Positions 48,510 through 52,115 of a DNA stretch of 64,000 bases are shown one piece after another. The notes under the pieces were generated by a model. The model searched no databases. It saw nothing but the letters and a program-made list of their open reading frames with translations, and had not been told where the DNA came from. The translations under genes were made by a program, and so were the position numbers. This DNA is from Salegentibacter salinarum (lineage in GTDB: Bacteria > Bacteroidota > Bacteroidia > Flavobacteriales > Flavobacteriaceae), in assembly GCF_900168115.1 (NCBI RefSeq), contig NZ_FUZC01000002.1, positions 248,001 through 312,000 of the forward strand. Direction: 5' to 3'. The first letter of the stretch is position 1, and the number at the start of each line of letters is the position of its first letter.

Positions 48510-49811
48510 TTAAATTCCAAAAGGATAAGTTTCCGGGGTCAATTCTGTTTTTGGTTGTAAATTCAACGGGTGCAGGGCTGTGGTTTTATCCAGATGTATA
48601 AACGCATCATAACGTTCCGACATCCTCGATGGAACATAATTCCCGCGTTCCCTGTCCGGATGGTAAACTACCCCAATTGCGCGGTGTTTCATCTTTTCAG
48701 AAAAAGCGTCATTTAATTCCTGATTTTCATCAAAAATTATAAGTTTATTTTCCGGGTCACTTTTATGTAATCTATGTTCTACACTGTCCTGGATTGCTTC
48801 GGAAACTTTCATCTTCTGCATAGGTGCTCCCCAGTTTCTACCGGCCATAACAGATCCTGAATAAGAACCAAAACCAACCAGTACAATATCTTCTTTGCTG
48901 TGCTGTTCCCTTATTAATTGGCCTACATTGACCAATCCACTTGCGGCCATATCTGTTGCCCGTGCATCTCCAATATGAGTGTTATGCTCCCAAATGATCA
49001 CTTTAGCCTCTTCATGGTGATGAGCCATAAGTCGGTTTAATGTTTCCACCATATGTCGGTCCCTAACATTCCATGAATCGTCACCAAACCCGGCCATAGC
49101 TTTATAATATTTTTCAGCGTTTGCCATAACTAAAGCATTCAACTCGGCGTTTAAACCTGCTTCTTCAGCGCTGTCATAGCTATGTGCTTTTTCTCTAACT
49201 TCTTTTAACAATTGGACCACCTCATTCTTACAATCTCCTTTTGAAGTAGAGAAAATTGAGGCATAGGAATCTTTTGCTTTAAAAGGTTCAAAACAATTAA
49301 GAGCATCTTTTGCTAATTCAGCCGTGGCAGGGTCTTCCTTCTGGAGATAATTAACTATGGAATCCATAGATTCCCAGAGACTATAGACATCAAGACCATA
49401 GAAGCCAATTTTTTCTTCCTGCTTTTTATTCAAATTAAAATCTTTTAACCAGTTTGCGAAAGCAGCAATTTCCCAATTAGCCCACATCCAAGTAGGCCAG
49501 CGATTAAATTCTTTTAATACATCCTGAATATTTTCGCCGGAATTCTTATAAGATTTAATCCATTTATTGATCTTATAACAATCGGGCCAGTCACCTTCAA
49601 CAGCAATAAAGGAAAATCCTTTTTCATTTATAAGACGTTTTGATATTTGTGCACGCCAGGTATAATATTCGTGGGTTCCGTGACTGGCTTCCCCCAGAAG
49701 CACATATTTTGCATCCCCTATTTTTTCCAGTAAAGGATCTAAATCGGCAGAATTTTCCAGCCGGTGATAAAATTTTTCAACTTCAGGTTTTTGAATTTTA
49801 TCTATAGACAT
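48510..49811 (-). CDS. Erythromycin-esterase family protein
   Basis: 433 residues. Motifs of the EreA/EreB-like family are in order: LGEASHGTHEYYTWRA with the catalytic-type Glu and His, FIAVEGDWPDCYKINKW, FYGLDVYSLWESM and IIWEHNTHIGDARATDM. Some members hydrolyse the macrolide lactone ring, but most chromosomal ones have no known substrate and need not confer resistance. No signal peptide, so probably cytoplasmic. No resistance or mobile gene is adjacent. Confidence 0.9.
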   Translation of the reverse strand: MSIDKIQKPEVEKFYHRLENSADLDPLLEKIGDAKYVLLGEASHGTHEYYTWRAQISKRLINEKGFSFIAVEGDWPDCYKINKWIKSYKNSGENIQDVLKEFNRWPTWMWANWEIAAFANWLKDFNLNKKQEEKIGFYGLDVYSLWESMDSIVNYLQKEDPATAELAKDALNCFEPFKAKDSYASIFSTSKGDCKNEVVQLLKEVREKAHSYDSAEEAGLNAELNALVMANAEKYYKAMAGFGDDSWNVRDRHMVETLNRLMAHHHEEAKVIIWEHNTHIGDARATDMAASGLVNVGQLIREQHSKEDIVLVGFGSYSGSVMAGRNWGAPMQKMKVSEAIQDSVEHRLHKSDPENKLIIFDENQELNDAFSEKMKHRAIGVVYHPDRERGNYVPSRMSERYDAFIHLDKTTALHPLNLQPKTELTPETYPFGI

Positions 49812-51420: not shown

Positions 51421-51516
51421 CCGTCAGTTCGAGGAAATTTCATAGACGATAGCCGAAAAACCCTATCGAGAATTTCTCTAAACACTCCGGATTCCATCGG
51501 GCCACTCGAAGTGACA
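51421..51516 (-). repeat. GIY-YIG-flanking repeat, downstream copy
   Basis: Read on the minus strand: TGTCACTTCGAGTGGCCCGA, TGGAATCCGGAGTG, GAGAAATTCTCGATAGGG, TTTTTCGGCTATCGTCT, and the end TCCTCGAACTGACGG. It starts 28 bases after the GIY-YIG stop codon and has the same orientation as the upstream copy. It carries the small palindrome GAGAA-A-TTCTC. Confidence 0.8.
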
Positions 51517-51544
51517 GTAGCGGGATTAACTAAACAGCGAGTTT

Positions 51545-51843
51545 CTAATGCCTACTTTTTAAAGTTTTCTTAGCCAGATTTGATAACGCATCAAAACTTC
51601 CATCTATCAAAGCTTTCTTTTTAGCTTGAGACCATTTCTTAATTTGTTTGTCTCGTAAAATAGCATAATTAATGTCTGTAAATTCGGAAAAAACAACAAT
51701 TTTAAAGGTGGTCTTTTTGCGGTATAACTATCTGGATGGGCGCCCGAGTGATGTTCTACTATCCTTTTTTCGAGATTAGAGGTGACGCCAGTATAATAAA
51801 TTTTATCTGCGCCTTCCTGAATATATATATAACTAACCCTCAT
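51545..51843 (-). pseudogene. GIY-YIG nuclease, frameshifted in a homopolymer
   Basis: It starts MRVSYIYIQEGADKIYYTGV and TSNLEKRIVEHHSG, with the GIY-YIG motif and the catalytic Arg. After SYTA the frame derails. Adding one A to the run of five (51714-51718 as T on the plus strand) restores KKTTFKIVVFSEFTDINYAI, LRDKQIKKWSQAKKKALIDG and the end SNLAKKTLKSRH. This gives the usual length of about 99 residues, including the Glu (FSEF) of the family. It is bracketed by two direct copies of one repeat. Confidence 0.85.
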
Positions 51844-51894
51844 ATGAATGTCTCTAAAGTAAAAATAAGTTAATAAGTTTTTGTTATTAATCCT

Positions 51895-51982
51895 GCAGTT
51901 CCAGTTGATTTTAAGGCGATAGCCGAAAAATCGAGAACTTCTCGATTCAATCACGATTACATCGGGACCACTCAAAGTGACA
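51895..51982 (-). repeat. GIY-YIG-flanking repeat, upstream copy
   Basis: On the minus strand: TGTCACTTTGAGTGGTCCCG, ATGTAATCGTGATT, GAATCGAGAAGTTCTCGATT, TTTCGGCTATCGCCT. It aligns with 51421-51516 over its whole length and lies 51 bases before the GIY-YIG start codon. Its inner palindrome is longer: AATCGAGAA-G-TTCTCGATT. Confidence 0.8.
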
Positions 51983-52115
51983 CTTTATCCGGTGAGGAAG
52001 AGGAGGGATTCCACGTAGGAGAAAAAAGGGGGTGGTGGCATCTGCCGGGTTAAAAATCCCCATCCAAATTTTTAAAATAATTATTTTCTTGGTTTAATTA
52101 TTTAGCGACCGCCTG

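Follow-up and report, generated by a model that had tools for sequence, protein, structure and literature searches.

The window analysed here, a stretch of 64,000 nucleotides from Salegentibacter salinarum, contains a small, broken GIY-YIG nuclease gene with a copy of the same structured repeat on either side (Table 1), and the question is why a nuclease gene should be bracketed in this way. RAYT (TnpA-REP) transposases are thought to spread GTAG REPs, and an earlier note on this DNA had likened the arrangement to RAYT/REP pairs, with the nuclease and its own palindromic sites forming a spreading unit. We examined the locus itself, its relatives in flavobacteria and small GIY-YIG genes in other phyla.

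Table 1. The nuclease relic and its flanking repeats (coordinates within the window)
Feature	Position	Strand	Basis
Small GIY-YIG nuclease gene, pseudogene, frameshifted near 51,700	51545..51843	-	PF01541 match; intact gene at the G002 site
Composite repeat upstream of the nuclease gene: decayed head-to-head pair of GTCA-tagged hairpins	51895..51982	-	Aligned with the G002 copies
Composite repeat downstream of the nuclease gene: decayed head-to-head pair of GTCA-tagged hairpins	51421..51516	-	Same orientation; aligned

The earlier note was right that a GIY-YIG gene lies between the repeats and that it is frameshifted. A curated profile search matched it to PF01541 (E 2.5e-6; 28.1 bits against a gathering cut-off of 22.6), and profile searches matched the REP-bracketed gene to no other family. 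The remaining three PF01541 matches of this genome lie in open frames of 460-621 aa, leaving the window gene as the only short one. By profile, the closest solved relatives are single-domain UPF0213 proteins (PDB 1zg2, E 2.8e-8; 1ywl, E 1.6e-6). Two Tyr motifs, an Arg, a His and a Glu are invariant in an alignment of 11 intact relatives, and we take these to be the active-site residues; the invariant Glu position reads Asp in the second piece of the broken window gene.

The two repeat copies are 76% identical (E 7.5e-11) and both read 5' to 3' on the minus strand and so share the orientation of the gene, as had been described. In the 4.31 Mb genome (40 contigs), copy 2 as query matches only itself and copy 1, and the 14-mer TTTTTCGGCTATCG has exactly two mismatch-free occurrences, which are the two composite copies. 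Their outer left end reads TGTC. Folded as single-stranded DNA, the upstream copy gives a weak signal (z -1.90) and the downstream copy none (z -0.31). With its nuclease broken, its repeats decayed and no further copies in the genome, the window copy is an inactive relic. The sequence adjoining the upstream repeat (51984-52064) is single-copy in this genome and is similar, by eye, to what lies between the genes at the matching site of G002, G005 and G009. An erythromycin esterase family gene (48510-49811, minus strand; PF05139, E 1.9e-116) lies about 1.7 kb from the nuclease relic.

A better preserved form is found in G002, a genome of the same genus with an intact nuclease gene at the window's site (L006). 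Its upstream repeat is made up of two inverted hairpins that abut and carry their GTCA tags on the outside; both have the form GTCA-NNNN-GAG-loop-CGA-N'N'N'N', and one half of the downstream copy fits this form. The 96-nt pair folds well as single-stranded DNA (z -4.3; 0 of 200 shuffles as good). The roughly 90-base repeat proposed as the unit is therefore real as two copies but is not the smallest unit, which is a single hairpin of an inverted pair. Similarly, the copies share one orientation only as composites; each is itself head-to-head, and elsewhere one outward-facing REP per side is the commoner arrangement. The paired form occurs in G002 and tandem forms in G014 and G027; the window's own genome has only the two decayed copies. 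In the tandem cases (L252 in G027:C15 and L242 in G014:C4) REP pairs form arrays around the nuclease; the G027 array has a period of about 180 bp, and its nuclease gene recurs after about 1 kb.

A strict hairpin motif was counted 117 times across the 30 loci L005-L034, which span about 2-3 kb around relatives' GIY-YIG genes; the copies of L015 and L034 are counted twice because these loci overlap. At least one occurrence falls within about 600 bp in 29 of the 30 loci, the exception being the window's own, and scrambled forms of the motif yield 0 and 1 occurrences in these loci. The window's own copies (L004, L005) give 0 matches to the strict motif, and none was found at the loci of its genome's three other GIY-YIG domains. 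Among 62 distinct instances with a fixed short loop, carrying 18 different stems, the 4-bp stems are fully complementary in 33, against a mean of 2.0 and a maximum of 8 for shuffled 3' halves. Flavobacterial types 1 and 2 have stems of 4-5 bp, an inner GA/GA mismatch step and loops of 5 to about 45 nt; for one type-2 hairpin, the fold is no better than that of shuffled sequence (z 0.74).

Counts across 119 genomes (the window's own and those of relatives) show how widely the repeats occur. The nuclease profile matches 65 of these genomes at E 1e-8. The type-1 REP, GTCASTTCGAGTG, is present in 349 copies in 41 of the 119 genomes (reversed pattern: 5), and type 2 in 176 copies in 22 (reversed pattern: 0). 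A repeat confined to this locus is thus what is seen in the window's own genome, with two copies only, but not in its relatives. A nuclease match is found in 42 of the genomes carrying type 1 or 2 and is lacking in 9, while the genomes with neither type, only these two being counted, divide into 23 with a match and 45 without (Fisher p 1.2e-7, kinship ignored).

Proximity to the nuclease varies. In genomes for which every copy was listed, REPs within 1 kb of a nuclease match number 1/18 in G043, 0/10 in G017, 0/12 in G060 and 0/2 in G047, and 1/1 in G036, 3/3 in G040 and 2/2 in the window's own genome (G000). On the question raised in the earlier note, solitary copies outnumber flanking ones in G043, G017 and G060, but not in G040 or the window's own genome. 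G083 is an exception: it carries 68 copies of type 1, and its sole GIY-YIG match is partial (E 2.8e-8) and has no strict REPs around it. That partial match (L331) lies beside repeated tRNA-like 3' ends, among which ARAGORN finds no whole tRNA. In G096 (L335, 1376-1450 and following) a GIY-YIG-like reading frame begins directly downstream of a tRNA-Asp gene. These tRNA-adjacent cases are possibly another lifestyle of such genes.

The association extends well beyond flavobacteria. From a scan of 84,980 species' genomes we kept the best 80 of at least 505 relatives (L061-L140), which are ranked by likeness to an Azospirillum protein and are not a random draw. By record title they belong to proteobacteria, Bacteroidetes, Planctomycetota, Ignavibacteria, Nitrospirae, a Leptolyngbya and further groups; since many of them are MAGs, single taxon assignments may be wrong. 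Hairpins consisting of GTC and a perfect 8-bp stem occur in the nearest 50 bp at 7.3 per kb upstream and 11.5 per kb downstream of the nuclease gene, about 60-fold above their density at 5-10 kb (0.12 and 0.18 per kb), and six scrambled tags reach at most 2.0 per kb beside the gene. Such hairpins lie within 100 bp on both sides of 31/80 nuclease genes and on at least one side of 57/80, compared with 4/800 and 92/800, respectively, for other ORFs of at least 100 codons from the same loci.

This pattern does not depend on the chosen motif. When the 250 bp on each side of the gene were compared without any motif, 49 of 79 loci had an inverted match above the 99th percentile of controls, against 2/395 for control windows of the same spacing from the same loci; direct matches between flanks were found at 39 of the 79. 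Many of the matched stretches read GTCATTCCCGCG..GCGGGAATCCAG or variants. The nearest tags mostly point outward (27 outward to 13 inward upstream and 33:14 downstream), as they do at 80 flavobacterial loci (33:14 and 30:9). In plasmid records, clear repeats around the gene were seen by eye in 8 of 10 loci; L041 has no obvious REPs, and those of L043 are weak at best. Elsewhere, L058 likewise has no obvious REPs. Some GIY-YIG genes sit inside otherwise conserved gene strings, namely the suf genes (L044), nrdR-RNA methyltransferase (L036) and rnc-era (L043).

Two simple explanations can be weighed against these figures. The hairpins might be terminators or other transcript elements of the nuclease gene, as many of them fold well and lie at gene ends. 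We regard this as very improbable, given that they occur upstream (40/80 within 100 bp) as often as downstream (48/80), carry outward tags on both sides and have dispersed copies away from any nuclease. Alternatively, the repeats might be arbitrary sequence that was simply duplicated locally about a chance gene; the only two copies of the window's own genome both lie at this locus, but relatives and named loci of other phyla have this arrangement beside their GIY-YIG genes too, which makes the idea hardly credible. As a general explanation, local duplication is refuted by the density profile and the bracketing counts given above.

The REPs in this wider set have a defined extent, as judged from aligned copies. 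In 107 distinct REPs from alphaproteobacteria and other groups, the base preceding GTC is C at 0.58 and T at 0.36 (pyrimidine in 94%), and the stem is followed by C-C-A-G at 0.98, 0.88, 0.91 and 0.65, with information near zero beyond; GTC and the first stem letters were selected for in this profile, the preceding base and CCAG were not. The 109 flavobacterial REPs also have a pyrimidine before GTC in 92% (T 0.70, C 0.22), and show no conservation of a CCA tail. The REP of L053 is a clear example, with a free CGTC, an 8-bp stem, a 4-nt loop and a free CCAG (z -4.6); that of L323 has an 8-bp stem and a 5-nt loop (z -3.6). On a Spirosoma oryzicola plasmid (L040, 1839-1918), an 80-nt near-perfect palindrome with TGTCA/TGACA ends lies upstream of the GIY-YIG gene (z -14.7).

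Whether nuclease and REP types change together was followed in the 80 top-matching GIY-YIG loci of Flavobacteriales genomes (L240-L319, which largely repeat L006-L034). At least one flank has the strict motif within 400 bp in 38 of these loci, and both flanks do in 25; with GTC and 8-bp hairpins included, the figures are 55 and 37. Of the remaining 25 loci, 23 were inspected by eye, and most have further REP-like types. The motif-free comparison of flanks placed 51 of 78 loci above the 99th percentile of pairs from other genomes, but only 29 of 78 above that of the far ends of the same locus. Five stem types could be assigned to 59 of the 80 loci, the labels being set after the flanks were read and 21 loci left unlabelled. 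The nuclease protein tree, built from 95 columns for 80 rows and with many forks open, needs 9 changes of type. Freely shuffled types need a mean of 35.6 (minimum 30; 500 trials), and types permuted within genomes (16 genomes, 40 loci) a mean of 27.2 (minimum 17; 500 trials). Moreover, G012 and G027 each hold four labelled nucleases and four REP types. Because so few changes are needed and four types coexist in one genome, REP type, on these comparisons, follows the enzyme and not the genome.

We therefore return to the window with the following reading, to which we assign a probability of roughly 0.7: the locus would be a decayed member of a two-part system, in which a small GIY-YIG nuclease, flanked by CGTC-type REPs, spreads with them by cognate cutting. 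The target of the nuclease would be its cognate REP, in hairpin form or as a folded single strand, and the nick would fall at the tag or close to it. Through repair or strand exchange, REP-gene-REP units would then be copied or moved to new places, and gene-less REPs or REP pairs could spread likewise. Such a scheme would parallel that of RAYT on GTAG REPs, with unrelated enzyme chemistry. GIY-YIG enzymes hydrolyse DNA without a covalent link, so the chemistry must differ from that of RAYT. The earlier comparison with RAYT/REP thus gains support from the association and the matching of types. The opposite outcome, repeats scattered without regard to GIY-YIG genes, is contradicted by the distance profile, the bracketing and the agreement between REP type and nuclease lineage. 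Counter-evidence comes from REPs that persist without a matching nuclease (G083 and the 9 genomes above) and from the 23 genomes that have a nuclease and neither REP type. The nuclease loci lacking REPs (L041, L058), the poorly folding type-2 hairpin, the low share of flavobacterial loci (29 of 78) that exceed the far-end control, and the single decayed locus left in the window's own genome also count against this reading.

A mobile unit should be present at some sites and absent from the matching sites of relatives. At the window's site, a relative of the neighbouring DUF2459 gene is found in 14 of 15 genomes of the genus. The nuclease and REP insert is seen in G000, G002, G012 and G014 and is absent, over the 900 bp compared, from G004, G005, G007 and G009. 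G001, G003 and G010 have different surroundings; the loci of G011 and G013 are cut by contig ends and were not judged, and the comparison covers only about 200 bp in G006.

Plasmids provide two further cases. In A. lipoferum 4B, a REP pair, the gene and another REP pair lie between sufB and sufC (L044). Eleven other Azospirillum records align across this unit in two pieces (85-86% cover), and 5 of 5 examined lack the gene. Within 50 kb around the A. lipoferum unit such hairpins occur at the unit only, and two relatives have none. On Sphingobium plasmids, fnrL and a response regulator are separated by a compact 385-bp REP-gene-REP unit. The alignment runs through the whole stretch in seven records and breaks into two pieces in four others, and 3 of 3 examined among these four lack the gene. 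The gene-less site of TomTYG74 (L327 629-662) holds one palindrome tagged at both ends (GTCA...TGAC; z -3.3), which could be an excision scar, an internal deletion or an unsplit target. The empty sites of TomTYG72 and TomTYG65 have no palindrome.

The terminase-portal junction of GTA-like clusters (L155-L234, before the portal gene) takes many different inserts, with several REP types there. In the 74 GTA-like contigs examined, out of 80, the gap at this junction shrinks to 13 bp in some, and five contigs are known to carry the nuclease there; for L155, the gap value starts from the frame of the nuclease itself. L174 has, before the portal gene, a gene-less palindrome tagged at both ends where relatives have a REP-gene-REP site, possibly a footprint like that of L327. 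With the L053 nuclease as query, 50,697 phage records gave one weak match. Overall, presence and absence at matching sites, as compared in Azospirillum and Sphingobium, fits a mobile unit. The comparison of empty sites gave no base-exact ends or target duplications, because the intergenic flanks are too diverged in the genus, at the GTA-like junction, in Azospirillum and in Sphingobium.

These sites also bear on the strongest rival, in which the REPs are landing pads and a homing-type GIY-YIG gene splits REPs or REP pairs that spread by other means. GIY-YIG homing endonucleases are known, with the same nuclease fold and a gene carried as a selfish insert. The single two-tagged palindrome of TomTYG74, where other plasmids have REP-gene-REP, would suit such an insertion, as would the gene-less REPs common in G083, G017 and G060. 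Yet no intron or intein was seen here, the brackets are inverted tagged hairpins that are also found alone, and the empty sites of TomTYG72 and TomTYG65 lack the expected palindrome. The agreement between REP type and nuclease lineage does not separate this reading from spreading by the nuclease, but loci where REPs occur at the gene only (2/2 in G000, 3/3 in G040 and the A. lipoferum unit within its 50 kb) speak for the latter. Landing pads would also leave the spread of the REPs themselves unexplained, and we consider them unlikely.

A different possibility is that the nuclease is kept by the host to process REP hairpins (in repair, recombination or RNA processing) and is co-inherited with them without spreading them. 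A REP hairpin is a plausible nuclease substrate, and RAYT enzymes are described as domesticated transposases in the available text of PMC8266576. The nuclease nevertheless looks mobile rather than kept, because its presence is patchy, several genomes have broken copies with internal stops, several nuclease lineages occur in one genome and sites are gained or lost between near relatives. Such a host role is decidedly improbable, and we retain cognate cutting by a mobile nuclease as the preferred reading.

How does this relate to known systems? The closest match for the repeats is the CGTC REP superfamily (Di Nocera et al. 2013, PMC3733652). As far as the text available to us goes, these REPs carry a CGTC tag (TGTC or CCTC in many), a stem of 8-9 bp, a loop of 4-5 and a CCA tail and form mostly head-to-head pairs, all features shared with the REPs described here. 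They are reported there from five phyla, above all alphaproteobacteria, with the dRS3 repeats of Neisseria and the RPE repeats of Rickettsia filed among them; named carriers include A. lipoferum, S. meliloti, N. aromaticivorans and the flavobacterium G. forsetii. In the plasmid records of the first three, we found a GIY-YIG gene between such repeats (L044, L039 and L042, respectively). The published repeats are described, in the same text, as having no dedicated transposase, and what moves them is left open, whereas the REPs found here flank GIY-YIG genes. The fit to the superfamily is poorer for the flavobacterial types, which differ in stem, loop and tail (a GA/GA mismatch step, longer loops and no conserved CCA tail).

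The arrangement also resembles a REPtron, as portrayed in the part of PMC8266576 at hand: the gene of a small DNA-cutting enzyme lies between tagged palindromes, gene-less copies are dispersed, and enzyme and REP types change together, as the low number of type changes on our nuclease tree indicates. The enzyme here is GIY-YIG and not an HUH tyrosine enzyme of the IS200/IS605 group, and the tag is CGTC/GTCA and not GTAG. The system would work like a REPtron but, because the HUH enzyme is absent, is not one. Likewise, the composite repeat is built like a REPIN (PMC3116915, as excerpted), in which a pair of inverted REPs is the mobile unit, with two inverted tag-outward hairpins that fold as one unit, but has a different tag and a different partner enzyme. 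Among the literature matches listed (titles and abstract starts, with preprints and most subscription journals outside the scope), no report ties GIY-YIG to REP, RAYT, REPIN or CGTC repeats; a pangenome table in the portion of PMC9465073 seen has RAYT and a GIY-YIG gene as separate entries. CGTC REPs and REP systems with an enzyme partner were known already; a GIY-YIG partner for the CGTC superfamily would be new.

The value of the window relic is as a pointer to a wider system. Relatives of gene and repeat are found together in matching types in many bacteria, and the enzyme may therefore be the partner that this widespread class of REPs has been lacking. Whether small GIY-YIG nucleases are the dedicated enzymes of CGTC REPs across many phyla, and so a second REP-spreading system independent of RAYT, we regard as an evenly balanced proposition on the comparative evidence. 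If true, tagged-hairpin repeats would have been joined to a nuclease at least twice, with unrelated enzyme folds, and the scatter of small GIY-YIG genes between genes in many bacteria would be explained. The system would then extend to the dRS3 and RPE repeats. Each REP type is given a candidate partner by this pairing, a protein of about 95 residues, and cognate specificity is predicted, which makes the question of what moves CGTC REPs directly testable.
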